Position numbers and translations under genes: made by a program. A stretch of 64,000 bases of DNA from Ureaplasma sp. Hg1 (lineage in GTDB: Bacteria > Bacillota_I > Bacilli_A > Mycoplasmatales > Mycoplasmoidaceae), in assembly GCA_021378535.1 (NCBI GenBank), contig JAACJV010000001.1:50155-114154 (forward strand), read 5' to 3'. The notes under the pieces are model-generated. The model saw nothing but the letters and a program-made list of their open reading frames with translations, ran no database searches and was not told the DNA's origin. Positions 8,528-36,037 of this stretch are shown here, piece by piece. Within the stretch, counting starts at the first letter, position 1, and every line of letters starts with the position of its first letter.

Positions 8528-8581
8528 TTACAATGTATGTTAGCGGTATCTTTTATATTGATGGGCTAGTGTTCAAAACAA

Positions 8582-8615
8582 CTCTAACGATGATTGAACC
8601 ATCGTTAGAGCTTTT
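8582..8615 (+). terminator. Intrinsic terminator
   Basis: 11-bp stem CTCTAACGATG/CATCGTTAGAG then C-TTTTA. Confidence 0.8.
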
Positions 8616-8664
8616 ATTAGACTATCATTGAGGTATAAGATTTAAGCAATAATAAGGGGATAAG

Positions 8665-9537
8665 ATGAACGTTAAGAAAGTATATCTAATTAGTGAAGGT
8701 GATGATGAGTGAAATTATTTTGAGCAACTTAATATTTTACTTAGTAATATTAAAATTATTAATCTTAAACCATCTAGTTTAAGAAGTTACTCAAATAGTG
8801 AACATTCATTAATGTTAGGCATATTATTCTATAGCAATAATATCCTTGAAGAAAAATTGCATTTTAAATTTTGATCATTTTATTATCATTGGTTTCTTAA
8901 GGAAAAAGGATATAATATCAGTAGTCAAAAATTAGTTGCTAAAATAAACGATTTAATCAATAAAAGAAATTTATCATTAGATTACGCTTCAGAAATTACA
9001 TTAGATGCATTTATAAATAAACTACTTGCGTATGATTTTTTTATAATAAGAGAGATAGATCAAGCTAATAAATTTAAAAACTTTATTATCAATAATAATA
9101 AAATATGTAAAGTTAACGATTTTAAAGTTTTAATTTTTGATACCGATAAAGGGTCAAACAAAACAGATGAATATGATTTAGCTAAACTATATTCAAAAAA
9201 GGGAAATTTATTCTTTGGTTATAGTAATCCTTGCTTTGAAATTTTTGCTTTATTACATTTAAGAAAAATAACTAGCAAGGATATAAAATTACTTAATGAT
9301 GCCGATTATAAAAAAAGATCTGACCAAATGAAAGCAATTTATAAAGTTACTAAAAATAAAATATTCAAACAACCCGATAGTAGTTTAGCTATGTTATGTG
9401 CCGATGCAACTACCAACTGACAGTTAAGTAACTTATGTGGCGAAATTAATAAATTAGATTCTGAATATGGCACGAACCTAATAAAACTTCTCGGTAGGTT
9501 AATTGAATTAAATAGGAATAATACATCTTCAAACTAA
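8665..9537 (+). CDS. RloB-like TOPRIM-domain protein
   Basis: VYLISEGDDEWNYFE (TOPRIM Glu), KVLIFDTDKGS (DxD), GYSNPCFEIFALLHL (RloB signature). Confidence 0.75.
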
Positions 9538-11084: not shown

Positions 11085-12611
11085 ATGGATAAAAAAAATA
11101 GAAACTATGTTAATCAAAAGTTTAGGGATGAAAATAAATCAGTAAGTTTAGATGAATTACAAAATGAGATGTCAATTAGCCGTAGAACAATATCAGATGT
11201 TATTCATCTTTTAAATATCGAACAATTGATAAAAAATAAGAAGACCAACGTAGGAGATAGAAATGCTAATTATATTAGACAAATAGATGTATTTAAAATT
11301 TTGCTATACTATTTTGCCACTAAAGTTCTAGGGTCAGCAAACGAAAAAAACAGAAACTATTCACTAGTTAATAAAACATCGTTCATCGAATATACTAAAA
11401 AGAAAATGAACGCAGACGAACTTAACAATGTTATAAAATTATTTGAATCTAATAATTCTAGAAATTATTATATTATTAAAAGAATGTCAAGTTACATAGA
11501 GAACAATCAATATGATCAATGAAAAAAATTATATGAAGAAATGAATGAAACCATATCACCGACTCTCAAAGAGATATTAGTGCTTGATACATCTGTTTTA
11601 GTAAATGCACCAAAAGTAATAGACGAATACTCTGAGGGATTTTATAAAATTAAAATACCTAATATCGTTTTGGAAGAACTAGATAATTTAAAAGATAATA
11701 GATCAAAACTAAATAATAATTCAGTTAATAATGCTCATAACGCAAATATTGCTTTACTTTCAATTGAAAAATTTAATAAATTAGAAATACTAGATGTAAT
11801 GCCCAAAATAGTTAAAGAAGGTAAAAATGATAATAAAATTGTTGAATGCTGTAAGCAACTATCTAATAAATACAAAATAACATTTCTAACAAATGATAAA
11901 ACTCTAATTACAAAAACACAAAATATAACTAATTTAAAAGCTTTGAGATATAGTGAGTTTATTGAGATAAACGATAACAAACAAAGCGACGAAAAATTTA
12001 GTATTATTAAATCAGAAAAATTTATCAATCTAGTAGAATCAGAAAAATACGACGAACTTCTAGAAGGTGATTGAAGTAACATTAATATTAATTACTTCAA
12101 CACAATGGGTTATGCTCCGGTTCATATTGCTACAAATAAAAATAACTACAAAATTTTAAAATTTATTTTAGAAAATTTTAACAAAAAATTAGATATCAAT
12201 ATATTAGATAAACATAAATATGGAATTACCCCAGTAACATATGCAGTAATGAAAAGAAATTTAGGAATGATTAAATTGTATGAAAAACATGGCGCTGATT
12301 TTAGCGTCGGTAGTAAAGGGAATAATTTCAATAATACACCTCTATTAATAGCGGCGTGGAACGGTTATCTAGAAGGAGTTAAGTATATTTTGGAAATAGA
12401 TGTAGTTTCTATTAATCAGGTTGACAGCAATGGTTTTACAGCATTGTTCAAAGCAGTTATAAAAGGGCACATAGATATAGTAAAGTATCTTATTTCTAAG
12501 GGCGCAGACATAAAAATATATTGCTTTAAGGGTTTGTTAGTTTCTGATTACGCTAAAAAAAATCGTAAAATTAATCAAAATAAAGAAATAATGGAGTTAT
12601 TAAAATGATAG
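11085..12611 (+). CDS. HTH - PIN nuclease - ankyrin-repeat fusion protein
   Basis: SISRRTISDVIHLL (HTH); ILVLDTSVLVNAPKVIDEY...IPNIVLEELDNLK...TNDKTLI (PIN acidic residues); ankyrin units GYAPVHIATNKNN, NTPLLIAAWNGYLEGVKYIL, GFTALFKAVIKGHIDIVKYLISKGADI; one frame through TGA(W). Confidence 0.85.
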
Positions 12612-14818
12612 ATCGATGTTGTATTTCGTTGAACAATTACTGTAATATGAATTGTAAATACTGCTATTTTTATAAACGTGATAATATTCGCATTAAAGAC
12701 GTTCAATGCTTTGGTATAAATGAAATAAAAGTGATTTTAGATAATATTTTTGAATATTGCGAAACAAAAAATTTACGTAAAAAATTTATTATAGGAATTG
12801 TTGGCAGTGGCGAACCATTACTAAATTTTAAGGAGATAGAATACATAATAAATTATACGAAGGAAGTTGGAAAAAAAAGTTTAGTTAGATTTTATGTAAT
12901 AACAAATGGATACAATTTAGAATCAAAAAAATTGGATTTTTTATTTAATAATAAAGATCTTATTGACGTTTCTTTCTCGTTAGATGGAGATAAAGAGCTG
13001 CATGATTTGAATCGAGTTAAATGAATAGGCAAGGAGTATGTAGGAACATTTTATGAAGTTTTTAGTAATATTAAGCGATATGCTTTAAAATTTGGGCGAA
13101 TGCCAAGTATCAATGTAACGGTCCATAAATTTACAATATCAAAGATAAAGGATTTATATGATTTTTTAATTAGAGAGAATTTTTCAAAGGTAACTTTCAG
13201 TAAAATTTTTGATAATAAAGATTCTGAATTATATATAAGTGATCAAGAATTTAGTGATTTCATAGAGGAAATAAACAAAATCAATGAACATTTAATAATT
13301 AGAAATATTGAAGCAAGAGATTCAAAAAAAGTAGATTGCTCAAAATATGGAGCGAAATGTGGAGTCGGGATAACAAATATCTTTTATGGTAATGGTAAAA
13401 TTTATCCTTGTGGGAGATTTCTTAATAACAAGGAATTTCAATTAGGTAATTATAACGACAAACTAAGAGATATAGAATCAAAATTTTCAGATTGTAAATA
13501 TACAAAATTTAATGATTTAAGAGAAAGTTTTAAAAGTTATCATGATGTTTATATTTCGAAAAGTTTAAAAGAATATAGTAAGATAGTTCTCTATGGTTTG
13601 CCGAGAAGCGGAAAAAACTACGCCATTAGTAAGTGCTTCAAGGGAACTGATATTAAGTATTATAGTGGTTCATCAAACTTATTAAGTAGCTCAACTCTAT
13701 CTACATTTAGAAATCTACCTAATGCAAGCAAAGAACTTAAACGGAGGAATTTTATTAAAACTTTTAACAACTATCGTTTAGAAAACCCATCTAATTATAT
13801 TGTTGACGGACATTTTTCATTTCCTAAAAAAGATAAATTAGATATATGTATGCTAGATGATGATTTGTTATGTTACGACTACTTTTTATATAAATATACA
13901 AAACCGGAAATAATATATAAAAATTTTTTGAAGGACAAGGGATCAATAGATATGAGCAATATGCCTATGTCAAAAATAGAATCATGGCAAAATTTTGAAA
14001 TAACCAATTTAAAGGTAAGGTGTGCCAGCATTGGCAAGGAATTAATTGTTATTGATGATAATAAAAATATTCGTCGATTTAGTAAATTTTTAGTATCTAA
14101 AGAGAAATCAATTAATTCAAATTTTCAAGTTGATAGTTGAATTGAAAAAAATAAAGATAGAATTGCAAACCATAATAATATAATAGTTATCGATGGCGAT
14201 AAAACAATTTCAAATATAGATAAGTCAAAGGAATTGCTAAAAAAATTGATAGAAAATAAAGGTAGTTTAGATAAAGAAATTGGTAGGATTATTTTTAAGA
14301 ATGATATCTATACTTCTTATCAAATTTTTCAATACATAGATTACTTTTATTCAAATTTTAGTTCTCTAGAGATAAAATCTGCCTTAAATTCTATGGATAT
14401 CAAAGAAGATGAAGACGGGTTGATGAGTATATTAAAATTACTATCTAAAAAATACCTAATAATCGTTGCAACTAGTGGTTTAAAGGATTTATGAGATCAT
14501 TTAACAAAGGATATAGACCGATTAATAATCGGATCTACATTAAATGCTAAGGCTTGTATTATCTCTTCTTTTAGTAAAAAATTGTTAGTGGAGAAACTTT
14601 TAAATTTAGATAAAAATGTAATTGCAATCGGAGATAGTGAAATAGATATACCAATGCTTGAAGCGGCATCAAAAGGATTTTTGATTATAAATAGTGAAAA
14701 ACAAAAAAAGCGTTTAGCTACGAGTCTTAATGTTAAGGGCGGGCTGAATTTCAAAGTTATAAATAGAACTGAAAAGAATGTTCTATTGAGTCTAGGAGAT
14801 GAACAAAATGATGGATAA
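12605..14818 (+). CDS. Radical SAM (SPASM-like) - P-loop kinase-like - HAD phosphatase fusion protein
   Basis: CNMNCKYCYF (CX3CX2C), CSKYGAKCGVG...GNGKIYPCGRF; P-loop VLYGLPRSGKNYAI; HAD VIDGDKT ... VATSG ... IAIGDSEIDIPML; single frame. Confidence 0.85.
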
Positions 14819-15380
14819 TTTATCTAAAATATACAATTTGAATAATATAATAAACGAAAGTAGAGATTCGAGAAATGACGGGTTAGTTTTAGTTGGAATC
14901 CATAGAAAACTGGGCAACATAATAGGTTTTCACTTTTTGAATAGGTTAGTACTAAAACCAATCACTATTGAACATGTGCAAGGGGTTCAGGAATGTGTGG
15001 CATATGACACGGCCGAAGTGGTTATTATTAGTTTAATGCGCGGCGGACTTTTTTTAGCAGAAGGAATTTGAGAAACTATAAAGGAAGCAAAATTTATTTT
15101 ATACAATGATGTCAAAGATATTGAAAAACACAAACATATAATCAAGGGACGAAAAATTTTAATTGTTGACAGTGTTATAAATAATGGAACATCCGTTAAC
15201 AAAGTCATCAGCGAAGTAGAAAATATTAATAAGGACATTACAATCGTATCAGCTGTCACTCAAGAAAAATTTGAAAGCAAGTACGACCTAATCACTATTA
15301 GAATTTCTAATAATAAATATAAAGGTGTCAAAAATTTGGATACCGGTAATAGATTATTTAACACAAAGGAGATCGATTAA
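14808..15380 (+). CDS. Uracil-phosphoribosyltransferase-like PRTase
   Basis: [18 protein letters not shown]-binding loop; [14 protein letters not shown]-terminal [11 protein letters not shown] resembling UPRT GDAGDRLFGT. Confidence 0.75.
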
Positions 15381-15817
15381 TGTTAGTTAGTATAATAATG
15401 GGAAGTAAATCCGATGAAAAAATAATGAATGCGGCAAAGCTGATTTTTGATCAATTCAATATTAAATATGAGTATAAAATTATTTCAGCGCACAGAACCC
15501 CTCAAAAAATGTATGAGTATGCAAGGGAGACTAAAGCTGACATAATTATTGCTGGTGCAGGCGGAGCCGCTCACCTTCCTGGGATGGTTGCCTCTTTAAC
15601 AATTAAACCGGTCATAGGAGTCCCGATAAAATTAAAAGATTTAGCAGGGCTCGACTCTTTATTGTCGCAAGTCCAAATGCCTAAAGGTGTTCCTGTCGCG
15701 ACCGTTTCTATTGATGGAGCCGCAAATGCTGCGCTTTTAGCGATTGCAATATTAGCAATAAAGGATAAAGATTTGCAAAAAAAATTAACCTCGTATAGGG
15801 AAGAATGAGAAAAATAA
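15380..15817 (+). CDS. purE: N5-carboxyaminoimidazole ribonucleotide mutase
   Basis: [35 protein letters not shown] PurE motifs. Confidence 0.95.
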
Positions 15818-16839
15818 TGGTAATTGGAATAATAGGCGGAGGCCAGATTGGTTGAATGATGATTGATGCTATCCATGAACTAGGTTATAAAGCAATTGTT
15901 CTTGAAAAAAGCGAGTTATGCCCCTGCAAAATGAATGCTGACAAAATAATTATCGGTGATTATAGTGATATAAATGCGCTACAAAAACTATATGATGCTT
16001 CTGATTTAATAACTTATGAATTTGAAAATATTAATATTTCAATTTTTAAAGAGAATGCTTTTTTATTAAGTAAAATTCCCCAAGGAATTGAGCAATTAGA
16101 AATTTTTCAGAATCGTCTAAAAGAAAAAAATATGATGATAAAACTAGGTTTTAAAACTGTAAAATTTTCATCCCTAAATTTTAAAAATGCAGCAAATGTT
16201 CTTAAATATTATCCCGGCAAATATATCATCAAAACAATTCTAAATGGGTACGATGGGAAAGGGCAAAAAATGTGTAAAAATATAAATGAAGGTTTGGATT
16301 TTTTAGAGTCCAACAGCGGAAATTTTATAGTTGAGGAATTTGTAAATTTCGATTTTGAAATTTCATGTATAGTGCATTCCAACGGCAGAGATACAATCTC
16401 ATATGATCCAATTTTAAATATTCATGAAAACGGAATTCTAAAGGAATCATTTTCTCCTGCTACAATAGATGATGATTTGAAGAAAAAAATCGTAGATATT
16501 AGTAAAAGCATAGTTAAAAAAATGAATATCATTGGGACGATTGTAATTGAATTTTTTGTAATAAATAATCAAATTTTAATAAATGAAATAGCTCCTAGAC
16601 CTCACAATAGTGGTCATTTAACAATTGAGGGATATTCAGAATCTCAATACATAAATCATATTAAAGCTATCACCTGTAGTGAATTGAAAAAGCCGAAACT
16701 TATTCATAAAACAAAATTAATTAATTTGTTAGGAACTGAAATTTTATTACAAAACTTAGGTGGTATCAAATATAATTATAATAAAAGTGAAATCATTAAA
16801 GGTAGAAAAATGGGTCATATAACCTATATCATGGACTAA
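15805..16839 (+). CDS. purK: N5-carboxyaminoimidazole ribonucleotide synthase (ATP-grasp)
   Basis: [42 protein letters not shown]. Confidence 0.95.
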
Positions 16840-16842
16840 AAT

Positions 16843-19800
16843 ATGTATTTCAAATATAAAAAAAACTATGATAATGAATTTCTAAAGCTCAAATTATATT
16901 TAAAAACTGTAGCTAATTTTAGCGAAACAAAAATAAATGATATTGAATTCCATTATTATATTAAAAATAACCAATTAGCTTTAGAAAAAACAAGAGAAAT
17001 TTTAGCGAAAAATGACTCTATATTTGAGTCTGCTTTAGATGATAAAAAGTATTTCGCATACATTAGCAAGGATAATCAAATCGATATAACATCCCAACGT
17101 TTGGATGAATTATTACTTAACATATATAATATTTCGTCTAATACTGAAATTGTTAAAATCATTACTTGAACTAATTTGAATGATAAAGAAGTAGATATAA
17201 TAAAAAAAATTGTGATAAATCCAATTAAAAGTAGAGAAATTTATATTCCATTTAAAATCAACATTAAATCAGGAGCTTCTAGTAGTGAAATAAAATTAGT
17301 GGAATACAATGATGCTCGAAAAAATTATAAATTACTTTCACAAACAATTGATTTCATCGCTTCAATAAATAAAAATAAATTGCTAAATAATGTTGAATGA
17401 AAATTAGTTGAAACCTATTTATCTGACCATTGTAGACATAGCACTTTCAATACTATATTATCAAATGTAATAATTTCAGATGGTGAACTTTACAATGAGG
17501 TGCAAAATACCTTTAACAAACTAAAATTAAATTTAAAAGGGAAACCACTTTCCCTTATGAACGTTGCTACTATTTTTAAAAATAATTATTCTCAAGATAA
17601 AATGTTAAATGATAATGCTTTTGGTTTTATAAGAACAATTAATAATAAAAATTATTTACTTACAATAAAGAATGAAACGCATAATCATCCATCGGAAATT
17701 GAACCTTTTGGAGGTGCGGCAACATGCATTGGTGGCGCGATTAGAGATCCTTTGGCATTGGCGACGATTCCTTTTCAAAGTATGAGAATATCAGGAGTAA
17801 AAAATCCTCTTGAAAATTATTTAGACACACTACCAAATAAGCAACATCAGGCTATTCTTTCTAAGGAATCTGCAAAGGGATTTTCAAGTTATGCTAATCA
17901 AATTGGTATTCCGTGTGGGTATGTTAACGAAATTTACGACGAAGGTTTTGTGGCTAAGAAATTAGAATTAGGTGTTGTAGTTGGAATTGGGGAATATGAA
18001 AATAATAAAAATAAATTAATAGTTGGAGATGTAATATATCTATTGGGAAATAGGACTGGGATCGATGGAATAGGTGGAGCAACTGGTTCATCAATCGAGA
18101 TGACTAATACTAAATTATCTTCAAAATCAACCGAAGTACAAGAGGGAGAGCCAACAACTGAAAAAAAATTATTAAATTTATTTAGTGATAAAAATTTCAA
18201 GTCTCTAATTAAACAATGCAATGACTTAGGTGCCGGAGGAATTTCGGTGGGAATAGTTGAATTAAGCGAATCCATGGAAATAGATTTAAAAAATGTTAAG
18301 GTAAAACAAAATAATATTTCGCCTTATGAAATATTATTTAGCGAATCGCAAGAGCGTATGGGTATCGTAATTGCGAATAAAGACATAGATAAACTAATCA
18401 AATTACTTGATCAATTTGATGTTGAGGGCTCAGAAATAGGAAAAATTAGAAATGATAAAAAAATATTAATCAAATATGGCGGGGAATCGATTGTAAACTT
18501 ATCAGTAAATATTTTAAATTTAAATAATTTTTTTAATATAGATACTTTAAAAATAGAAACTAGAGCATCAAAACAACTATATTATAATAAATGTAATTTT
18601 AAAAACCAAATTTCGATTTTAAATGAATCATCTAAAAAAGGGATTTCTAATTTTTTTGATAGTTCCATTGGAGGCCAAACAATATTGGCGCCTTATGGAG
18701 GCAAATATCAAGCTACTCAAGCCGAAGGATGCATAAATAGATTGCCAATAAAGCACTCGAATTATTTTAGTTCTCTTTCGTTCGGATACAATCCATTACT
18801 TTCTTACTTATCGCCTTATTTAGCGGGTATTTATGCAGTTGTTGAATCAATAAACAAACAAGTTTGTATGGGTAATAATATAAATAATATAAAACTTAGC
18901 TTTCAGGAATATTTTCCAACCCTTAATAGTAATTCAAAATGATCATCAGCTTTTCTAATTTTATTAGGTGCCACAGAGGCCCAAGAAAAACTAAATGTTT
19001 TTAGTGGTGGAGGCAAGGATAGTGTAAGCGGTACGTATAATAATATTGATGTACCTTTCACATTAATTTCAATTGCTTGATCAATATGTAGCGATATTAT
19101 AGTTGTCTCTCCTGAATTAAAATCAAGGGAAAGCTATATTTACTTATTAAAGCAAAATAAGAAGGTTAATTTTTACCCAAACTTTAAGGATGTAATTAGT
19201 AATATTAATTTCGTGACAGAATATATTAAAAAGAAAATAATTATTTCGGCCAAAACTATTGAGACGAACCCTATTTCGGATTTGAAGAAAATGGCTTTAG
19301 GGAATCAGATAGGATTTAAATTGTTAGGGAATTTTAATTCCTTAAATGATTTTTTACCTGGCACCATTCTAATTGAGACAACAAATAAAATATTCTATAA
19401 AAATGCCATTTTAATTGCTGAAACAATAGATAAGCCATTTATTGAAATTAAAGGGACAAAAACACCTATTGATACCGTTTTTGATGAAATGAGAAATCCA
19501 TTATCAAAATTATATCAAGATTACAAATTTTCAACTGTAGCTAATTTGAAGCTTATCAATAAAATAAAAATTAATTCTAATTCTAAAAAGGTTAGGGTTC
19601 TAATTTTAGAATTTCCAGGTACTAACGGCGGGAGAGATATCCAAAATGCTTTTGATTACATGAATGTGGTAACAAAAATTAATGTAATTAAAACAAAATC
19701 TAAAAAATTATTTGACACTTCAATTGATGAATTAGAAAAAGATTTGAATATTAGTGATATTCTTGTAATACCTGGTGGGTTTAGTTTTAACGACGAACCT

Positions 19801-20352
19801 TTTGGTGCCGCAACATATATATCTGAAATTTTAAATATAGAAAAAATTAGATTAAAGCTACATGAATTCATGAAGAAAGATAAATTAATTCTTGGTATTT
19901 GTAATGGATTTCAAGCATTATTAAAAACCGATTTATTATGAGAGTATGATTTGCCTAAGCCCAAACTAGTTAGGAATATTAATAATGATTTTATTTCTAC
20001 ATTGGTTAACGTAGAAATATTAGAGAGTCCAAGTATTTGAACGAAAGGAATGTTAAATAATATTTTTTTACAACCAATTGCCCACCAAGAGGGAAGATTT
20101 ATAATAAGTAAAGATTCATATGACACTCTTGTTAAAAATAAGCAAATAGTTTCAAGATATCATGAATCCAATCTTAATGGATCTGATTATGATGTGGAAG
20201 CCATATGCTCAAAAAATGGAAATGTCATAGGGATGATGACTCATCCTGAACGAATAAATAATAATTTATTTATTAACGTACCAGGAGAGAAAGAGAAAAA
20301 TATATTTATAAATGCAATAAATTATATAAGGGAAAATAATAATGAAAAATAA
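16843..20352 (+). CDS. purL: Phosphoribosylformylglycinamidine synthase, single chain with glutaminase domain
   Basis: YLSDHCRHSTF, NETHNHPSEIEPFGGAATCIGG, GILGICNGFQAL glutaminase Cys region (LGICNGFQALL), MTHPER; one frame of about 1169 aa. Confidence 0.95.
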
Positions 20353-21652
20353 ATTGAATGAAGCTTGTGGAATCTTTGCTAATTATAGTTTTGGGGATGA
20401 GCGAACTTATATCAAAGATAACGTTGAAAACCTAAAACAATTGTCTCATAGAGGTCAAAATGGTTGGGGCTTCGTATTTGATAATAACTTTAAAGACATA
20501 TATGGTGTTGATTCTATAGTCGATTTTTCCTTAGAAAGCGATATAAAAAGTAATAGATTTTTAGGGCATGTTCGTTACTCTACGTCCAAACATAATGCGA
20601 ATGGTTTACAACCAATATTATTAGAACCGAATATTTATGTAACACATAATGGAAATTTAACAAACACTAAAGAAATATTAATTAGCCTTAATAAGGGAGA
20701 TATATCGCTAGATAGTGATTCAGAAATAATAAAACATTTATGACAATCTTATAAAGAAAAAAATATAAAAGCAAGGGTTATAAATGTGCTGAAAACTATC
20801 GAAGGGGCATATTCTTTGGTTTTCATGGCATCCAATGCTTTATATGCTGCTAGAGATAAGAACGGATTCAAACCGTTAGAATATATAGCAACGAATGAAA
20901 ATTGTATTGTAACTAGTGAGAATAGATTTCCTAACAAAGAATCAAAAACAATTGAGCCGGGTGAAATGTTGGTGATAGAGAATGACAAAATATCTACAGA
21001 ACGAATTTTACCTTTATCAATAAATAAATTTTGTTTATTTGAATATTTGTATTTTTGTCGGGATTCATCTCATGTTAATGGTTATCTAGTAAAAAATATT
21101 AGAAGTAAAATTGGGAAAACAATGGCATTCAAAGTAAAAAGTAATGAGTATGATTATGTTGTTCCGATACCAAATTCCGGATATGAATATGCTCGCACTA
21201 TATCAAAAGAAAATAATATCGAATTATTTACTGCCATTGAATTAAACGTAAATCATGAAAGAACCTTTATTGAAAATATTGAATCCTCAAGAAAATTAAA
21301 AACAGTTAAAAAATACATTCTTAATAAAGACATAGGTTTAATTAAGAATAAAAGTATCCTAATCGTTGATGATTCAATTGTAAGGGGCAATACATTAAAG
21401 CATATCTTAAAATCTATTGAAGTCTATTCTCCGGCCAGGATAGATATAATTCTGGCAAGCCCCAAGATAATTAATGTATGTAAATGAGGCGTAGATATTA
21501 AATCTAAGGATGAATTAATTATGAATAAATATACTTCAAATGAATTGGCTAGAAAATGATTTGTGAACAATGTTTATTTTTCTACAATCAATGAAATATT
21601 AAAAACTTGTAATAGCGGAAGTTGTAGTTTCTGCTTCAGGAAAGGAAATTAA
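20342..21652 (+). CDS. purF: Amidophosphoribosyltransferase
   Basis: NEACGIFANY (N-terminal Cys), HRGQNGWGF, VRYSTSKHN, IVDDSIVRGNTL, CNSGSCSFCF. Confidence 0.95.
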
Positions 21653-21653
21653 A

Positions 21654-22643
21654 ATGAGTAAAATTTACAAAAAAGCTGGAGTTGATATTAAAAGAAATGA
21701 CGAGTGTATTTCGAATTTATCGAAAATCATAGGTAAAAATAATAATCAAAATTTAGATAATTTTTGTGCGATTGAAAATATAAATTTTATCAAGCAATAT
21801 AAAAATCCGGAAATTATTATGTCAACTGATGGAATTGGATCAAAAATATTGCTTCATTTAAAATTCAAAACTTATAATTATTTAGCGCAAGATTTATTGG
21901 CGATGAATATTAACGATATCATTACAAAGCGGGGGAAACCTCTATATTTTCAAGACTATATATCACTACATAAAAATCACAACGATGGGGTTGTTGAGAA
22001 TATAATAATGCATTTATCATCGCTTTGTAGTGAATACAATATAAAATTGACGGGCGGCGAAATTTCAGAAACACCCCTTATAAATAAAGCGGATTCCATA
22101 GACATCGCAGGTTTTATTGTCGGCATAAGAGAATCTCAAAAAAATGAGCCCATTAATGATAACGATTTAATTGTCGGTTTACCCGCATCGGGTCTACATG
22201 CTAATGGTTATACTTTAATCCACAATTTAATTGAAAAATATAAAATTCAATATTCAGAAAAATATAAAGGGAATGAAATTAGTGAATTACTAGTAAAACC
22301 AACTAAAATTTATCTTAATGATATTAATGAAATTGAAGACGTTTGTATCATAAAGAACATCGCTCATATCACCGGCGGTGGAATTAATAATAATTTAAAG
22401 CGAATATTGAACGGTTATGGGGCAGATATCTATTATAATCAATTTCCAACTTTGACAATCTATGAATTTCTTGAAGAAATTTTGAAATTAAATAAAATCG
22501 AAATAAGCGAAGTATTTAATTTTGGGATTGGCATGTTATTAATAATGAACGAAGCTGAACTCAAAAAATTCCCCGCCAATATTGAACATTATGTTGTAGG
22601 TAAAGTTAATATAAGTAAAGAAATTAAAATATTATGAAAATAA
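21654..22643 (+). CDS. purM: Phosphoribosylformylglycinamidine cyclo-ligase (AIR synthetase)
   Basis: MSTDGIGSKIL, LTGGEISETPL, GLPASGLHANGYTL, HITGGGINNNL. Confidence 0.95.
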
Positions 22644-23176
22644 TGGTATTTGCTTCAGGAGAGGGAACTAATTTTGAGGCCATCTTGAAATCGCCAATTG
22701 GATATTTAATATTTGGTTTAATATCGGATCGCAAATGTAAGGCAATTGACGTGGCGTTAAAATACGAAAGACCTTATTGGATTGTGCCTAATAATAAATT
22801 AGCAAGCAGGGAAATTATAAAAATACTGAAAGATGAAAGTGTTGATTATGTTGTATTGGCTGGATACAAAAGAATTATATGCGGAGAAATTATAGATTTA
22901 TTCAAAAATAAAATAATAAATATTCATCCATCGCTATTACCACTTTACAAAGGCTTAAACGGTATTGAGAAATCGTTTGATATGAAAGATAAATATACAG
23001 GAGTAACCATTCATTTAATAAATAAAGAAATAGATTCAGGGACTATTTTATTTCAAAAATCCCTAAAAATAAAGAAAGATTGAAAGTTAAATGATTTAGA
23101 AAGAGAAATCCATAAAATAGAACATACCTATTTTTGAAAAGAAATAGAGAAAGAGGTTAAAAAGTGAAGTTTTTAG
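22634..23176 (+). CDS. purN: Phosphoribosylglycinamide formyltransferase
   Basis: FASGEGTNFEAI, VVLAGYKRII, NIHPSLLPLYKGL, TGVTIHLINKEIDSGTI. Confidence 0.93.
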
Positions 23177-24366
23177 TTTTAGGTAGCGGCGGGAGAGAAT
23201 TAGCGATAGTTAAAAAATTAAGTGAGGATTATCCTGGGTGTCATATATTTTGTTTCCCCGGCAACATAGGCACCTCAAAATTAGCTGAGAACCTAAATAT
23301 AAATAGAAACATTAACAGCTATTTAATAAACTTTAGTATTGTAACTAAGATTGATTTAGTTATTATCGGGCCTGAATCCTTTATCGACCGGAAAATAGTG
23401 GATGAAATGTTACTTTATGAAATAAATGTTGTGGGTCCAAAATACGAAATGGCTAAGCTAGAAAGTGATAAGTGATATGCTAAGAAATTAATGATGCGCC
23501 TTGACATTCCAACGCCCAAAACCAAAGCTTTCACAGATCCAACGTTAGCTATTAAATTCTTATCGGAATGTACCTTTCCAATAATATTAAAAAGAAACGG
23601 CTTAAACGGCGGCAAAGGAGTTTATATATTAAAAGATTACAAAAGTGCTCAAAGTAAAATATTAGATATTATTAGCATCGATACCATGGTACTAATTGAG
23701 GAATTTGTTGAAGGAGAGGAGTTTTCAATTATATTTGCAATTTATAATAATGAATATACTTTATTGCCTCCCAGTAGAGATTTCAAAAAAAGATCATTAG
23801 GAAGTAACGTTAATACTGGCGGGATGGGAGCCACAACACATTGCCCAAATATTAATAAAAAAGATTTGAATTTTATTGAAAATAAAATTATGAAAAAAAT
23901 AGTTTCATATTGAAAAACTGAAAATTTGGAATATAATGGTTTTTTATATATGGGAATTATAAAGCATGATAACAAAATTAAAATATTAGAATTTAATTGT
24001 CGTTTAGGCGACCCCGAAACTCAAGTAATTCTTCCTAAAATTAATAGCAAATTATTTAGCACATGAATTGAAAAACGTGTTTTATCATTAAGTTTTAGTG
24101 ACCTAATTTATACTACAAAAGTTTTGGTAAATGTTAATTATCCCTATACTACAGATATAATGGTTTCTATACCGGAAGGAAATCTAAGTTTTTCTAGAAT
24201 GTTAATTTATAGTGGGCTTATTTCGGATTCGCTATTTAAATCCGATGCCGGCCGCGTTTTATCTATTGTTGTGTCAGGAAAAAACTTTGCAAATATATCT
24301 AAAAAATTAAATAAAAAAATGGATAATTTACAAGGAAAGAATACCGATTATAGATGCGACATTTAA
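23164..24366 (+). CDS. purD: Phosphoribosylamine-glycine ligase (GTG start)
   Basis: FLVLGSGGRELAI, NGGKGVYI, NTGGMGATTHCP, LEFNCRLGDPETQVILP. Confidence 0.95.
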
Positions 24367-24908: not shown

Positions 24909-24980
24909 ATGCACGCAAAAACAACAATAAAACATAACGTACAAGAAGGAGAAAAACATGAAACTAAGTATAGACTTTAG
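24909..24980 (+). CDS. Candidate 23-aa leader peptide overlapping the helicase start
   Basis: CAGGAGAATAAAAT-ATG; MHAKTTIKHNVQEGEKHETKYRL*; ends inside the helicase gene. Confidence 0.3.
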   Translation: MHAKTTIKHNVQEGEKHETKYRL

Positions 24981-27900
24981 TAATCAAAATATTAGCCGTG
25001 GCAACCAAGCAATTAATTATAATAGTGTTCAGTTTAACAAAACTATTTCACTAATTAAGAGTTTAAAAGACAATCTAAAATTTAGGGGATTATACCCAGA
25101 ATATTCAAGCGTTGAAGATAAAATAAAAATGGGATTATTGCCAGATCTTGAAAATGCAGATAAACTGCAATTATTACAATGTAGTAAAACGCCACTATTC
25201 CGTAATTTATGAAAGAAAAAACAAGGTGCAAATTCTACCGAATGAGTTAACCAAATTATGGTATTCAAATATAATCAAATCAATGAAAATTGAAAAAATG
25301 ATGCAGTAGCATTATTTGGGAGATATCGATTTGTTAACTCACCAGATTCAACTAACAGTTCAATCACGTTTGTAGTAGAACGTGTCGAATTCATTGATAT
25401 CTTTTATTTAATAGAAGGATCGAACAAAATAATTGAAGGACCTTTCGATATCTCATTTAACAAACCTTTGCTAGACACTGAGTGTATGGACTTGGTTAGG
25501 ATTTTATCTGATAAGAAACGAGATATAAACGTTATCATTGAAAATGCAAATGAAAATTATGATTTAAATAAGGACATCATTAAATTAGTTCAATGATTTG
25601 AATTTATAAATGAATACAATAATACAATCAAAGAAGAGGATGAAGATCGTAAGGTTAAACTCTTTAGTTTGGATTCAGAATATAATTCTACTGATGTTAA
25701 GAATATAGGGGATTTAAGCTTTATATGTGTAACGAATAGAAATAATTTAGATGAATTCTTAGGCTCTAGACACCTAACGATGTCATATAAAAACGATGAT
25801 AATATTAATCACAAAATATTTGTTAATAAAAATCATTTTAATAAGATTGATTTTGAGTCATTAGTTGTAGATAAATACATAACAAATTTAGAAGATATTG
25901 ATAAAACAATGTTTGATAAAATCAGTGATATTGATCAAATGATAGAATCTCTGATAATAAAAACTAAGGACCAAAAAATTGATCAAAAAAATTTATTAGA
26001 CGACTTAAGTGCAAAAGAGATAAATAGAGATGCAACTAAAGAAAATATTGATTCCAAAAATAGCTTATTGGATAATAATAGCAACAATTTGAAAAAAATA
26101 AAATTTTCTATTAAAAATAATTTTCAGAAAATAAGCAATATTAATTTGTTAATAAAAAAATCAAAGAAGGATTCATTGGATCGTGAAGCAGAATTAAAGC
26201 AATTAGATACAATTATAAACGAAAAAGAATCTTTACAGAAAAAGACGAAATTAAATAAAAAATCGCAAAATAAAGACACCAATAGTGATGGTATTAATCT
26301 TGCTAAAATAAAATTAGCATTTAAAAATTTAATCGATAAAAATAATACTACTAACAAACAAGATATTGTAAATAAAGTTCAATTTGAAAGTGAAATATTA
26401 GAATTATCAACAAAAGTTAAAATACTGGATGAAGAAATAGAACAAAAAGAGAAATTAAATAAAAATTTCCAAAATGAAATTATGGAATTAAACAAACTTT
26501 TAAATTCCATGAATAAAGAGGTGCAAATTTCTGCTAAGGTTTGTAATAATGCTGAAATGAAATTAAGAAATTTGGCCAATCAAACCAGAGAACAGCGCGA
26601 TCAACATTCTGTTGCTGTTGAAGAAAGGGAATTGAATTCTCAAAAAATTACATATTTTAGAAATTTGATAGTTCTTATTTCTCAATACAACACTGTATAT
26701 GAAATACAAAATATAAAAATAAAACCAAATGAATCTAACGAAGTTATAGATGGCCCATTTTATCAACAAGATATAAGTAAAAATGAAGATATTTTATGAC
26801 AATTATCGACTAAAAATATGGGTACAATAAGCAAGATGAGAAGATATAGAAATGCTGTTTATAATGTTATGGATGCATGTTATAGAAATCCATATATCAT
26901 TTATTCAATGTACAATGCTCCTAAAATTTCCACAAAATATTATGATTTCGATAATTCGTTACAATCAAAATATAATCTTAATAATGAGCAAATGGAAGCT
27001 ATCTTAAAAAGTTTGAACACTAGAGATTGCTTTTACTTGCAGGGTCCTCCGGGTACAGGGAAAACCCAAACAATTAGTGCAATAGCGCACCAAAACATAC
27101 TAAACAACAAGACAACGTTGATGACATCTTCGACGCATGAAGCAATAAGTAATTTCATAGATCGTTTAAATTCTTATTCCTTAACTGATCCGTCGATAGT
27201 GTTATTTAAGTATGTTGCACAAAATTCTAATTCTAATAAAAATTATAACCCTTATGATGAAGACCATTTATACTCTAATTTTATAAAAAAAGCTTTAACA
27301 TTAGAGGACGACATTAATGATACGGAGATAGATAATGTCCATGCAGTTAGACAGTGCTATAATGATAATCCTGAGATGCAAGCATTATTTTTCAGCGTTT
27401 CCTGAATGAAAAATTTTATAAATCAAATCGATATAATGCTAACTGATGAAGAAGCTATTTTAAATAGTGATATGTGACTTAAAAATAGTAAATTTCTAAA
27501 AGAGTTATTAGGAAAAACAAATCAAAAATTGCCAACCTTAGAAAACGATATGGATAATTTTCATAGAACCTTAAAGAAACTACTAAGAAGTCGCGAGAAA
27601 ATAGGTTTAGAAGATGAATTACTTAATAAATATGAAGATCTTTTAAATAATTTTATTAAAAATGAGAATGACGCTCATATTACCTTTTCACAATTAATGA
27701 GTAAATTTCAAGCTAAGGCTAAAAACAATTTGGAGAAAAGAATTCATAATTTAAAACACCATGTATTAAATGATAATTCTTCCAACGACATTAAGACAAT
27801 CGAAAAAGAGGAACGCGAGTTTAAGAATTACTTGTTTAATAAAAATTTAATAAACGTAATAGGTATCACCACAACATCGCGTACTTCAATAAAAATAAAT

Positions 27901-29190
27901 GATCAAGAAAAAGATATTTTCACAGAATATCCGATTGATATAGTTATTATTGATGAGATTTCAAAATCTTGTACTCCCGAAATATTATCTAGAGCCATTT
28001 TGGCTAAGAAGGTAATATTTGCTGGCGATTATCGACAATTACCACCGCATGTAGAATTGGATAGTAATGAACTTCGTGAATTTACTGAAAGCAGCTATTG
28101 CAATCATTATTTCTATAACATAGCGAAACGTAAAAATTTAATTGATTATAGCGAAACGTATGACCAAGATAAAAATTATGCTTTTAATATTTTAGGGAAA
28201 GATGCAGACGAAAATAAAATCACAGATCATTTTAAAAATTTATGGTCACTATCATTCTTTACTAAACAAATTATGAAAATTAAAAGTAGCGGTATGAGAG
28301 ATAATCAAGCTTATTCGATACTAAGAGAACAGCACCGATTTAACAAAGATATTATGAATATAGTAAATATTAATTACGAAGAGGATGAAAGGCTAAAGCT
28401 AGCTAATGACGACCAGTCCTTAAATGAATATAATTTATTTATTAATAATACAAACTATGCATATGCACACACGATAGCGCTGGATACTAGTTATATGTCT
28501 AATAAATTTATTTCATATGCTAAACAGGCAAGTGAGAATGGAAGGAAATTGCAAAAATTTGAAAGTTACGTTGATTCTATAGAAGGCACTAAAATAGATG
28601 CCTTTGATCAAAAAATAGCAATATTCTCTAAAAAAATTAGATTATCTAGTTCCTCAACTTGTAACGAATACAACGCTTATACAATTGTTAAAATAATTAA
28701 AGAAATAGTAAATTCAAATGAAATAGAAAAAATTAAAAACAACATTGGAATTATCGCTATGACAATTAATCAAAAAAATATGATTAAAACATATCTTAGA
28801 GATACTAAATTTGTAACTAATGATGAAATTAAAAAAATAAATGATTGCGTGTGAGTTGATACCGTAGATAATTTTCAAGGTCGTGAAAAGGATTTTATAA
28901 TCGTAGATTTTGTAAGAGCAAAAAATTTATGTAATGCAGATGGGCTATTATTTAAAAAAGAAACAAAACAAAGAGATACATCGTTTTATGAAAAAATAGA
29001 AAGATTGAACGTTGCTATAAGCCGCGCAAAATCAAAACTAATTCTAGTCGGTGCATTTGAGCAACATCTTAACGATTTCGTTTCTCGAGTTACAACGGGT
29101 GAAAACCTTGTTGCTAGTAGAGAAAAGGTTATAAATTCAATGTATGAAAAATGTATAGTTAAGATCAACACTTGAAAGGAGGATTTATAA
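24958..29190 (+). CDS. UPF1-like SF1 helicase with long coiled-coil insert
   Basis: YLQGPPGTGKTQTI (Walker A), IVIIDEISKS (motif II), FAGDYRQLPPH (motif III), DTVDNFQGREKDFIIVDFVRA (motif V), LNVAISRAKSKLILVG (motif VI); merged through TGA(W). Confidence 0.9.
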
Positions 29191-31175
29191 TGGACAAGAA
29201 ATTAATAATAGAACTACCTGTGCTATATACTTTTAATCAAGTTAACGCACAGTTAAAAACTATAGAAAATATGACGCATTTTCAAAGTATGTTAGTCATT
29301 GTTGTTGAAGCCTGCGAAAAAGGTGAAATTAAAAAAACTGAAAATTTTCTAAATGCGATTAAGGAAACATACAATATAAATGATAATTACGACTATATGT
29401 TGATAGATTTAATTCTAAAAACTCTTAAAATAGGTAATATTAACTATTATGAGTACACAGATGATAAACCATTAAGAGATTTTTCTGATTTAAAATGGAG
29501 AACTATTTATGATTCTCTAATAGGGAATTACAAATTAAACCAATACATCAGAGATAATGTTGAAAATAATAAGTTTTTAGGTTTTTCTCCAAAGATTGAG
29601 AGTGAAAATCCTTTCATTGTTGAAGATTGTGTTAACTTTCCTGAAAGAAATAAGGAAATTAATATAATAGAATTAAAAGGGCGAAAACCCCAAAACTGAG
29701 ATTCGATAGATGAACCACAATATGTTCGTGTTCAATATGAAGATATTAATGACGAAGAAAAACAATACAATAAAATTGAAAAATATTTCAATAGCATCAA
29801 ACCTAGATATAGTATCTTTAAAATAGATTTACCATATTTGAAAAACAATAATAATTTATTTTATAAGAATGAAACTTTTGGATTCACAATTGATAATAAT
29901 TTAATTATTCCTGATAATAATGAATCAGAGAAAGTATTAAAATCCTATATTAATGAACAAGGATTTAGAAGTTTTAAAGATATAATTTTGGATCAAATAA
30001 GTATTGACCCAAAGCAATATAATATTAAAGCTAGCAATAAAAACAATTTAGTAACAAACGAAATTAATATTAGTGAATTTAAAGAATATATTGAAAATCG
30101 TTCAATTTTGCGAAGTGTCTTTAAAAATGAAGACATTGAATTTAGTTTTAACAAATATGAAGTTGTTTCGTTGAACTATGTCGAAGATGAAGTGGCCTTA
30201 AGTGATAATAACGAGTTAATAAAATTTGAATTTAATAATCCTGTTACAACGATTGAAGATAATCAGATTTTTAATAGATTATTAAAAGAAAAAATCGAAA
30301 ATAACGATATAAATTATGAACTAATTAATGAAGCGCCTAAATATTTGATTACTCAAATGGGTAATTTTATTATCAATATGATTCAGTCTAATTTAGTGCT
30401 AGATCAAGAGATGATCCAATTCTTTGCTAATGAAAATTGATTTGATAAACAATTAGTCAAACAGTTGAGCTTGGAAAAAATAGATGAATATTTTCTAAAT
30501 AATTGAGATTATCTAGGGGTTGTTATAAACAACGATAAAGACCAAGGAAAATTAATTAAGCATCTAATAAAGTTTCAATATAGTAGTAAAAATTACGAAA
30601 GAATTTATAATGTATATAAATTTAACTATAGTAAAATAGAAAAACCAATATTTAAAAATTGAGATATTGAAAGCAAATTATTTGAATTAAAGTCTTTTGC
30701 TAAATCGATTACGAGTGGAAAAATATTAAAGTTAGAGATGAAAGATCTAGAAGATATTATATATAAATTCGACACATTTATTAACCAGATTAATATTATT
30801 TCCAATGTTAAAGAAATGTTCATTGATAAAATAAGAGAAATAAATAGTCGCATTAATCATTTAAAAGACCAAGATGAAGAAAGCATCAAAAAAGATATAA
30901 ATAGCAATTTGATGGAAGCTAATAAACTAATGGAGGCATATCTTTCTAAACTTTCAGACTTTAATGGTAAAGATGCAAAAAAATACATTAATAAACTAAA
31001 TATTTCAAAAGGTGATAAAAAAACGCTAGAAAAATTTAGGGATACGAGAAATATGTATACCCACGAGGACAGTAAAAAGAAAAAAAATAAGGTTTTTACT
31101 AAATCAAGAAACATTGAGATTAAAAACTTATATGAAGAAGTTAAAAGAATAACTAATCAAAAGGAGAAAAAATAA
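29190..31175 (+). CDS. Unknown protein (661 aa), operon partner of helicase
   Basis: Stop/start overlap with helicase and following gene; no motif recognised. Confidence 0.75.
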
Positions 31176-32134
31176 TGAGTCATAGTGTATTTATAACAAC
31201 GGATGGTAAAAAAAGAATGCAGCACCAATGTGATCACGTTGCTGCTGAAATGGAAAAAATGTTAGAGCAAATCTCGCTGACTTCAAAAGTGGCGGTTGGA
31301 ATTAGAAAAAAAGTTGAAGCAATTAGAAATCAGCAAAACGAACTAATGAAATTTAGTGATGAAATAAACGATGTAAAAATATCTTCTGATTTTCAAAAAA
31401 AATTATCAACGCTAACAAAGGAAGGCACAAACCTTTTGCGTAATAGTTCAATAATCGGTACGCTAATTGATTTTAAGGAAGAACAAAGAGTCGAGATAGA
31501 GACTTTTATAATGGAGCAAGGTTACAAGGCGACAATAGCATATCGTAATTTAGAAAATAACAACTACATTGTTAACATGGAAACTTTACGCGAAGAAATG
31601 GATAAGATTAAAAATAAGAATTTAGAAAAAGAAGAATTAGATTTATTCATCAAAAAAAATATGATGTATATTAAAGATTTAGATCTAGATGATAGTCTTG
31701 CATTTGCTCTAATTAACAAATTAAAGTCATATAAAACCCCAGAAGGTTTAACTGATTTTCAATCATTTGTGAGTGAGAAAGAATTTGAAGTGAGCGAAAT
31801 TAATTCTTTAGCTAAAAGTATGTTTAAGGAACTAACTAAATATGATTTCAAAATGGGCAAATATGAATACAAATTAAATGACAAAGGAATTGTAGTGGGA
31901 AGTTTTATTTTGAAGGATAAGGCCTATCATGAATTGAAAATAAATATTGATGGAGCAAACGGAATTAACTATAAATTAGGTAATTACGAAGGACATGCAT
32001 GCGAAAAAACATCGGTAAAAATTTGGAATTTTTTAGATGAAAATGGATACGGAATAATAGCTGCTCCAATTATCAGAGATGTGAATGAAGAACCGCTTTC
32101 TAAAGCACAAAAATTATACGAAGGAGACAAATAA
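31175..32134 (+). CDS. Unknown coiled-coil protein
   Basis: TAATG overlaps at both ends; charged helical N-terminus. Confidence 0.75.
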   Translation: MSHSVFITTDGKKRMQHQCDHVAAEMEKMLEQISLTSKVAVGIRKKVEAIRNQQNELMKFSDEINDVKISSDFQKKLSTLTKEGTNLLRNSSIIGTLIDFKEEQRVEIETFIMEQGYKATIAYRNLENNNYIVNMETLREEMDKIKNKNLEKEELDLFIKKNMMYIKDLDLDDSLAFALINKLKSYKTPEGLTDFQSFVSEKEFEVSEINSLAKSMFKELTKYDFKMGKYEYKLNDKGIVVGSFILKDKAYHELKINIDGANGINYKLGNYEGHACEKTSVKIWNFLDENGYGIIAAPIIRDVNEEPLSKAQKLYEGDK

Positions 32135-34056
32135 TGAGTTTTTACAAATCACTAAATCAAGCAAAATTAAAAATACAACAAAAGAACATAGTTCTACTAA
32201 GCGGGAATGTTCAAGACTTTATTTTTGAATCTATTGAAGGATTCCCGATAGACAAAAAGAAAAAGAGAATTTACACTCTAGTGGAATATATAACAGAAAT
32301 GCTAAAGCAAGATAGTTACAAATTTGTTTCACTATACTCGCCAACTCGCGGCTCGGTGACGTTATTAGATAATGACCAAGTTAGTAAAATAGAACAATCA
32401 ACAACTAACAAAAAAGGTAAATTTGACGATTATTTCAATAACGATGAAGAGGGGGATAAGGATTCAATCAATGTTGATAATAGTGAAGTCAAAGATGATA
32501 AAAATAAAAACGAATCTGGTAAAATTAGTTTACAGCAATATGTTGCTGAAATTACACGTCTAATAAAATCACAAAAGAAAATTAGTAATAATGATAAAAG
32601 TAACGCATTTATAATTGATTTTTCAGAAGTAAATTTTGAAAAATCAATAGGTGCTAGTGAACAAAAATTCATTGCAGAACTATTAAATAACTTCATTAAT
32701 CAAGATTCAAATAGCATTCTTTCTTATATCGAAAGAAGAGATAAGTTAATTTTGATTTCAAGAAACCCTAATCTTTTAACCAACTTAATTCCAACTAACA
32801 ATAGCGAATTTGGAAGCGTAAGTATTCTTAAGCCGGACAATAAAGAGAGATCATCATTTTTTAAAAAATACTCTAATTGTTTCGATATCGGCGGAGATTT
32901 TGCAGACGATAAATCTGCCGATAAGAAGGATGCAATCCGCTTAACAGATAACTTATCATTTAGAGAAATTAGTCAATTGGCTAAGATTAATAACAACCAT
33001 AATGAAACATTAAACTTTAAGCAATTATATGGTTTGGCAACTTTTAATAAAACAGAATCTGAATGAGAAAAAATTGATTTTGAACAAATTAAGAAATTAA
33101 AGACTGAATTACGTTTGAAGGTCAAAGGACAGGATGAGGCGATTGCTAAAGTACAATCGGTAATTACTAAATCTTTTGTGGGATTATCGGGTATTAGTCA
33201 TTCATTAACAAAGAACAAACCTAAGGGGGCCTTGTTTTTTGTCGGCCCGACTGGGACGGGTAAAACTGAGTTAGCCAAAGCCATCGCTAGTTTTGTTTTT
33301 GGGGATGAATCAAAATTTATTAGATTTGATATGTCTGAATACAATCATGAACATAGTGATCAGAGATTGATAGGAGCACCTCCTGGATACGTTGGTTATG
33401 ACGCTGGAGGACAATTAACCACAGCTATTAAAGAACGTCCCTTTTCTGTTCTTCTATTTGATGAAATTGAAAAGGCTCACCCTAAAATTCTTGATAAATT
33501 TTTACAAATTTTAGAAGATGGAAGATTAACATCTTCCCAAGGCGAAACAATTGATTTTTCTGAAACATTCATTATCTTTACTTCCAATATAGGTTCAGAT
33601 ACTGTTGGGTCAAACCAAAAAGAAACTGGCGAACATTTTGTTAATGCTGTAAGTAATTACTTCACTAATGAAATTAAGCGTCCAGAATTATTAAATAGAA
33701 TCGGTTTAAAAAATATCGTAAGTTTTAATTTTATTACTGACGATAAAATCATTAAAAGTATTATTAATGCAAAAATTAAAATGATTAATCAATATCTTAA
33801 AGAAGAAAAATCATATAATATGTTGATTGATGAAAGCGCAGCTCAATGTTTAATTAAATTAATAATTAATAATTATGATAAGAAATTTGGTGGGCGAGGA
33901 ATTGTAAGTTCAATAGATGAAATTTATATTGATGCTTTATCAGACTTTATTGCACAAAATCACGAAACGATAAAGGCCATAGTAAAAGATAAACGCTTGG
34001 CTAGTATTAAACTTTCTGCGGAAAATAATAAAATCAAGTTTGCCCTAATTTCATAA
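32134..34056 (+). CDS. ClpA/ClpB-like AAA+ ATPase with degenerate N-terminal AAA half
   Basis: VGPTGTGKTELAKA, RFDMSEYNHEHSDQRLIGAPPGYVGYDAGGQLT, LFDEIEKAHP, FTSNIGSD; N-terminal half lacks a recognisable Walker A. Confidence 0.88.
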
Positions 34057-34100
34057 TATAAAGAAATTACAAACACCAACTATAAAAAGGAGGCATTATA

Positions 34101-34988
34101 ATGCTAAGTAAAATTAAGAAACCATTTAACTATAAAGTTAATTATCATTTCATTGAAACATGTAACATGAACTGTAAATATTGTTTTGCCAAAATGATTG
34201 GTAAAGAAATAAGTGATGAAGAAAAGAAAAAATTAATAACTAGAATAAGTAAAAAATTCAAAGCTATAAATTTTGTTGGTGGAGAACCATTGCTAAGGTT
34301 AAAAACCCTAGAAGAAATGGTGGATATTTGTAATAAAAACAATTGTAAACCATCCGTCGTTACAAACGGTTCGATGTTTGCTTTTAACATTGAAAAGTAC
34401 CGTTCTTTAATTTTAAAATTAGATACGATAGGGATTAGCATCAATAGTTTAGAAGATAAAACATTAATTAAGATTGGTAATTGCCTTGGCAATAATCAAA
34501 CTTTCAGTGACAAATATTTAACTATTATTACAACATTGAGAGAGATTAATCCTAATATCAAAATAAAGATTAATACAGTAGTTGAAAAGTTTAATTACAA
34601 GGGAATGGAATTAGCAAAATTTATTGATGAAGTAAAACCATACAAATGGAAAATTATGAAAGTTATTAACATTGACAATCATGGAGAAGGTTTTGAAATA
34701 ACCGATCAACAATATCATCAATTCATTGACAATAACAAACTTAAAAATAATAAAACTAATGTTATTATTGAAGCTGAAGGAGAAATGATAAATTCATATA
34801 TTATGATTCATCATAACGGTAGTTTTGTATCCAATTCAAATCAATCTAATTGTAATTTAATATCATACAAGAGCACAGACACCACTATAAAGCAATGACT
34901 AGACAATAATTTAGATTTAGATAAATATAATAAACGGTATGAATTTAAACAATCAGAAAATAAAGATCATAAGGAAATTATTATATAA
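34101..34988 (+). CDS. Prokaryotic viperin-like radical SAM enzyme
   Basis: NYHFIETCNMNCKYCFAKM, NFVGGEPLL, VVTNGSM, LDTIGISINS, IKINTVVEKFNY, KWKIMKVINIDNHGEGFEIT, NSYIMIHHNGSFVSN match the viperin pattern. Confidence 0.82.
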
Positions 34989-35197
34989 ATTTATTACTTT
35001 TACAAATAGATTGAGCCGCCACATTGGATTCAACTATTTGTTTTTTTATATACCTAATGAGCGTTGCTATAGATGAGTTTCACTAAATGATATTACCTAA
35101 TAAAATATATAGATTAAACTTAGCTTAAATTTTGCTTTATAATCAATATGAATTATAAATATTATTAAGATATTTATTAAAGAGGAATAGGTTTAAA

Positions 35198-36037
35198 ATG
35201 AGCAAACTATATGAAGATGTAAATAAGAAGAATAATGAATATGGTTCAGTCATTGCTACCATTTGTAAAGCGCGAAGAAATCAAATTTTAACAATCTTAA
35301 CGGTCGTTACAAAAGAAGTTAAAAGTGAAAGATGACAAAATAAATTTTCAATTGAAAAAGATCGTATTTATAAAGTCGGAAGCGCTTGATTAAACTATTG
35401 TATGGTTGAAAACGCTAATGCAGCTAATGCCTTTAAATTCAATATGGATTTCTATTTTTTAGTTAAAGCCAAACCGAGCGCGACCGATGTTGATTGCTTT
35501 GAAATTTCCAAACGAATTAGAGCTATTATTGATGGAAAATTCAATGAAATGAAGCCATGCAAGATCTTGTTGGGCACCAACAAAAGAGCTATTAGATTAA
35601 ATTGTTCAGTTAAGAATGCCGACGGTAGAAATGTGATTGATTATTCAATTGACATCGCAGTTCATATCTTAAGAGGTAATAAGGAAGTTACTTACATGAC
35701 TAGCAATGATGATGTCGGTAGTACGCCATTTGAATTCCATGAAGAATTGACATTTAATTATTGAGAACCAAAAATAATTTTAAATTTTAAAGATCCTTAT
35801 CGTTGGGCTCTTAAGACTTTAAAATACATTTATTATTTTAATAATACAAATAATGAAGAACTTGAAAACGAAATGAAAAAAGACAAATTTCTAAGTTTAG
35901 CTTATGAAATAACTACTAAGGTTATTAAAAATAGCCCTCACTTAATAAATGACACTAAGGCTATGCGAACTAAAAGAAGAGCTATTACTGATGAAATTAA
36001 TAGAAAATTTGGTGCGTTTAAGAAACCTGTGGCGTAA
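35198..36037 (+). CDS. Unknown protein, weak nucleotidyltransferase-like pattern
   Basis: KVGSAW...FKFNMDFYFLV...VIDYSIDIAVHIL recalls a GS / DxD / third-Asp layout, but the second Asp of DxD is not present. Confidence 0.35.

Follow-up and report, generated by a model that had tools for sequence, protein, structure and literature searches.

A viperin gene behind a helicase/Clp cassette in a mollicute: candidate radical-SAM arm of a putative anti-phage system

We have found that the 64,000-nucleotide stretch of mollicute DNA analysed here (the window) carries a gene which, judged from its sequence, encodes a genuine viperin and is the last gene of a predicted five-gene operon, the end of which is marked by a strong terminator. 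Few antiviral effectors are common to people and microbes, and viperin, one of these few, mostly occurs alone or with a nucleotide kinase. The explanation we favour, and consider reasonably probable, is that the enzyme provides the radical-SAM arm for a putative helicase/Clp anti-phage cassette. As a member of its family, viperin would abstract the C4' hydrogen from an NTP by means of SAM and a [4Fe-4S] cluster, and the product would be a 3'-deoxy-3',4'-didehydro-NTP, ending RNA synthesis by the polymerase of the invader. The helicase and Clp part would sense or handle foreign nucleic acid or protein. The sequences themselves establish to which family the enzyme belongs, its active-site residues, where the operon ends, that the cassette is conserved and that a radical SAM gene lies behind Clp. 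We infer the catalysis, the substrate and the anti-phage effect of the viperin, as well as its coupling to the cassette, the latter from gene order. The window genome is a draft of 42 contigs and is 85% complete.

The viperin gene and its active site

When translated with table 4 the ORF contains a single TGA codon, which is read as Trp. The sequence blocks quoted in the first-pass annotation (ETCNMNCKYCF, INFVGGEPLL, IKINTVV, KWKIMKVINI and NSYIMIHHNGSF) were all found in it, and the identity that the annotation had given to the gene was borne out by curated HMM, fold, residues and tree alike. The NCBIfam viperin model NF038283 gave 222.9 bits (curated cut-off 180), and the next models were eukaryotic viperin (75 bits) and MoaA (52 bits). 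The suggested HMM comparison with the pVip families likewise agreed, with E=2e-62 for PADLOC pVip (comparison entries PDLC02903/02904), and the top PDB sequence matches were fungal, animal and mouse viperins (6e-25). In a tree of 27 prokaryotic and 3 eukaryotic viperins and 15 other radical SAM proteins, the viperins were set apart from the other 15 by a 97/92 split; the window protein lay with the viperins and not with generic radical SAM/SPASM proteins, the placement named beforehand as speaking against a viperin. A generic radical SAM/SPASM maturase was thus ruled out by HMM scores, fold and tree.

An AlphaFold (AF2) model of the protein, for which the input was an alignment of 27 viperins, was confident (pLDDT 85.7, pTM 0.86). 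When the model was compared with the PDB by Foldseek the best 30 matches were all viperins (E 4e-17 to 1e-12), and other radical SAM enzymes appeared from rank 31 (E from 4e-10). The three cysteines of the cluster motif (C21, C25 and C28) are invariant in 27/27 aligned viperins. Window residues N14, H16, C21/25/28 and GGEP (G60-P63) correspond to N77, H79, C84/88/91 and GGEP of mouse viperin, S113, K156, N158, W183 and K184 to S180, K220, N222, W246 and K247, and Y233, R279 and Y280 to Y302, R347 and Y351. The residues common to all aligned viperins (mouse N77, H79, S180, K220, N222, W246, K247 and Y302) are all kept, and the sole change among the active-site residues checked is that of mouse R194 to Asn127. 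In the mouse enzyme R194 contacts SAM/SAH together with S180 (PMC6414715). Arg occupies this position in 23/27 aligned viperins, Asn only in the window and in a congeneric genome (G241), and Ala or Ser in two spirochaete viperins. As these other residues also occur among aligned viperins, an R194-type Arg is not family-defining, and at the level of sequence Asn127 is best taken as a warning on activity and no proof of inactivity.

The window protein resembles pVips in HMM score, in the CxxxCxxC, GGEP, KIN, RWK/KWK and SY motifs, in fold and in its place in the tree. It differs from them in being a mollicute protein (TGA=Trp), in having Asn for the R194-type Arg, in having no adjacent or fused nucleotide kinase, and in being encoded at the end of a helicase/Clp cassette. 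With vertebrate and fungal viperins (RSAD2; PDB 6q2p, 9dgw) it has in common the fold (TMq 0.73-0.78, full-length matches) and the catalytic residues, but its identity to them is 22-29%, it is without the N-terminal membrane helix, and R194 is replaced.

The operon and its relation to known systems

The four genes upstream of the viperin (24958-34056) are co-oriented and their ends touch or overlap, and 44 bp separate the Clp stop from the viperin start (Table 1). The second cassette protein would be 667 aa if started at TTG 29172; a Pfam search of its 661-aa form gave no match. The possibility that the 319-aa protein is a DUF1257/DUF2997 protein found no Pfam support.

Table 1. Features of the predicted viperin operon (positions in the window)
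Feature	Position	Strand	Basis
SF1 (UPF1/MkoA-like) helicase, 1410 aa, cassette gene 1	24958..29190	+	Pfam AAA_11/AAA_12; PADLOC MkoA
661-aa protein, cassette gene 2	29190..31175	+	Aligned with cassette counterparts, whose profile places it in the cassette
319-aa protein, cassette gene 3	31175..32134	+	Alignment: conserved MSH start, GNYxGHAC motif
ClpB-D2-like AAA+ ATPase, 640 aa, cassette gene 4	32134..34056	+	Pfam AAA_2 5.5e-51
Shine-Dalgarno AGGAGG of the viperin gene	34088..34093	+	Sequence
Viperin, radical SAM nucleotide dehydratase family, 295 aa	34101..34988	+	Table 4 translation; HMM, fold, tree
CxxxCxxC [4Fe-4S] cluster motif, C21-C28	34161..34184	+	Equivalent to mouse C84/C88/C91
Asn127 codon at the mouse R194 position	34479..34481	+	Alignment of 27 viperins
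Intrinsic terminator right after the viperin	35002..35048	+	Hairpin -13.2 kcal/mol, z -5.3, then U7

The 279-aa gene that follows (35198-36037) was rejected as a partner of the viperin, as the terminator lies between the two and the gene belongs to a five-copy family limited to this genome, with zero copies elsewhere in the order. The model of this protein is weak (pTM 0.65) and bears a faint resemblance to nucleotidyltransferases (OAS/NF90/CdnB, E about 1e-3). Another contig of the same genome (C40; L031 1-2646) carries a second viperin C-terminus, 68% identical over 38 aa, along with a homologue of the 279-aa gene and a DUF5378-like gene. The gene order matches that of the window, which would be explained either by a duplication or by the bin containing a sister strain.

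The cassette helicase is similar to MkoA of Mokosh (PDLC03920, 4.1e-52 over residues 320-1399), and the helicase of a Bacilli copy of the cassette matched MkoA at 7e-98. However, PADLOC gave no match to MkoB among the other cassette proteins, which are Clp and two unknown proteins. The ClpB-D2-like ATPase is remotely similar to DolB of Dodola (PADLOC 1.3e-17) and to the PADLOC candidate PDC-M37B (2e-32), but it sits in a four-gene cassette, in some cases with a radical SAM gene, and PADLOC gave no match to DolA for the cassette. With MkoB and DolA missing, the cassette is neither Mokosh nor Dodola as defined. Its patchy occurrence, the defence-type neighbours seen in several genomes and the remote MkoA and DolB similarities nevertheless point to a defence system, and the four genes probably form a mobile, patchily spread anti-phage cassette.

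Distribution of the cassette and of viperin

Homologues of the 319-aa protein were present in 37 of the 334 genomes of the order, sampled at one genome per species. Clp always adjoined the 319-aa homologue in the 20 loci that were fetched, and wherever the locus was complete the order helicase, ~690 aa, ~325 aa, Clp was fixed, in two genome families; in viral contigs no cassette was found. Since the genes directly 3' of Clp vary between loci, viperin is an addition to the cassette. In about 20 mollicute cassettes Clp is not followed by a radical SAM gene, so that viperin is not essential to the cassette.

The cassette was also found in 8/197 sampled genomes of another family of the same class, and in all eight a ~180-aa NrdG-like radical SAM gene overlaps and follows Clp. 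The two NrdG-like proteins that were scanned fell under the cut-off of every NrdG model. In two cases (G459, L173 9875-10375; G554, L183 6224-6724) the NrdG-like gene is followed by a sixth, RNase III-like cassette gene. The place behind Clp is therefore taken repeatedly by a radical SAM gene, from two unrelated subfamilies. The radical SAM enzyme at this position would be the chemical arm of the system, viperin here and the NrdG-like enzyme in the related Bacilli. A broader proposal, which we put forward tentatively and which may well prove wrong, is that an anti-phage system of Bacilli and mollicutes not described before would consist of MkoA-like helicase, ~690-aa, MSH...GHAC and ClpB-like proteins, with the radical SAM enzyme behind Clp as its working arm, and that most mollicutes would have lost the NrdG-like enzyme, which viperin would have replaced in some lineages. 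If true, viperin chemistry would be attachable to a larger defence machine, and mollicutes with their reduced genomes would possess an antiviral arm built on nucleotides. In its own right, too, the four-gene cassette is a candidate system, and dozens of mollicute genomes carry it.

The first-pass annotation knew of no described mollicute example, but the window viperin is not unique among mollicutes: an intact viperin was found in six further genomes of the order and broken copies in two (G205, G289). Among the seven intact proteins (7/334 genomes), six scored above the NF038283 cut-off and that of G249, an uncultured Mycoplasma sp. bin (L051), slightly under it (175 bits). The concern over limited Fe-S machinery did not hold, as genes for SufB/SufD, SufS and SufU are present in all seven carriers. 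Our literature searches returned no paper on a prokaryotic viperin in Mollicutes and nothing relevant on Spiroplasma, and novelty rests on these searches and on PADLOC 2023; the DefenseFinder paper mentions Tenericutes only for CRISPR. The G241 orthologue has 69% identity to the window protein. In the tree the mollicute viperins occupy four places, namely the window with G241, then G193 with G194 and G203, then G290 with a Ruminococcus viperin, and G249. A single origin of all seven was rejected (AU p 0.004), whereas a single clade without G290 was not (p 0.25). No viperin was found in phage records; plasmids held 15, all distant. On plasmid pTS2 of Treponema saccharophilum (L189 5435-9798) a viperin lies with an adenylyl/cytidylyltransferase, a PEP-binding enzyme and a cysteine desulfurase, in what looks to be a metabolic setting.

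Two further viperins were found in contact with cassette genes. In G193 the viperin starts 2 bp after a Clp remnant which has one in-frame TAA and a missing N-terminal part, and which is 49-59% identical to cassette Clps versus 33-38% to ordinary Clp. In G249 the viperin lies in front of the cassette helicase and the other cassette genes are frameshifted. With both of these cassettes decayed, the window alone has cassette and viperin intact, and the intact look of the viperin in G249 and G193 indicates that it can outlive the cassette.

This last observation also fits a stand-alone prokaryotic viperin, making an antiviral ddhNTP by itself and standing behind Clp only through the clustering of genes in defence islands. 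The viperins of G194, G203, G241 and G290 are not beside a cassette, and pVips elsewhere work alone (Bernheim et al. 2021, as cited in PMC10865869). We regard this explanation as possible but rather unlikely, because 3/7 intact mollicute viperins, from different lineages, touch the cassette or its remnant, because the chance of such contacts is <1e-4 (a rough estimate assuming about 1000 genes per genome, with the discovery window set aside), and because a radical SAM gene recurs behind Clp in 8/8 of the other family. The explanation we favour is also supported by defence-like genes in the neighbourhood of some viperins. Near that of G241 there are, by our own reading of the sequences, Dcm methylases and a GmrSD-type protein. 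In G194 (L023 3855-10827) the viperin is downstream of DndC-like, weak MzaB-like and MzaC/helicase-like genes; upstream of these lie methylase-like genes.

Metabolic alternatives and other features of the window

A metabolic role was also considered, in which the viperin-like enzyme would contribute a modified nucleotide to biosynthesis, possibly in concert with the purine genes and the radical SAM-kinase-HAD gene upstream. Such a role would be in keeping with the purine cluster in the window, with the loss of the R194-type Arg in the window and two spirochaete viperins, and with the metabolism-like operon around the T. saccharophilum plasmid viperin. However, a 590-bp gap and four cassette genes lie between the viperin and the purine genes, the cassette stands alone elsewhere, and the G241 orthologue is located among restriction-modification genes and not purine genes. 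We therefore consider a metabolic role improbable, and a functional link of the viperin to the upstream purine genes was not supported. That the viperin is degenerate or catalytically dead, as the replacement of a SAM-contacting Arg by Asn127 and the broken copies in G205 and G289 might suggest, appears to us very improbable, since the ORF is full-length, all other checked active-site residues are kept and the 69% identical G241 orthologue has the same Asn, which suggests purifying selection.

Apart from the viperin operon, the window contains several other genes that deserve mention. A purine synthesis run encoding PurE, PurK, PurL, PurF, PurM, PurN and PurD, here in a mollicute, extends over 15380-24366. 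PurC and PurH were not found in the 85% complete genome, and the pathway would accordingly end at CAIR. Adjoining the purine genes and a UPRTase-like gene is a gene (12605-14818) for a 737-aa fusion of radical SAM, AAA_17 kinase-like and HAD hydrolase domains. At 7583-9537 an RloB-like gene (starting at 8665; Pfam 2.4e-11, PADLOC AbiLii 7.5e-13) lies beside an unknown gene at 7583, and the two could possibly constitute a small defence pair.
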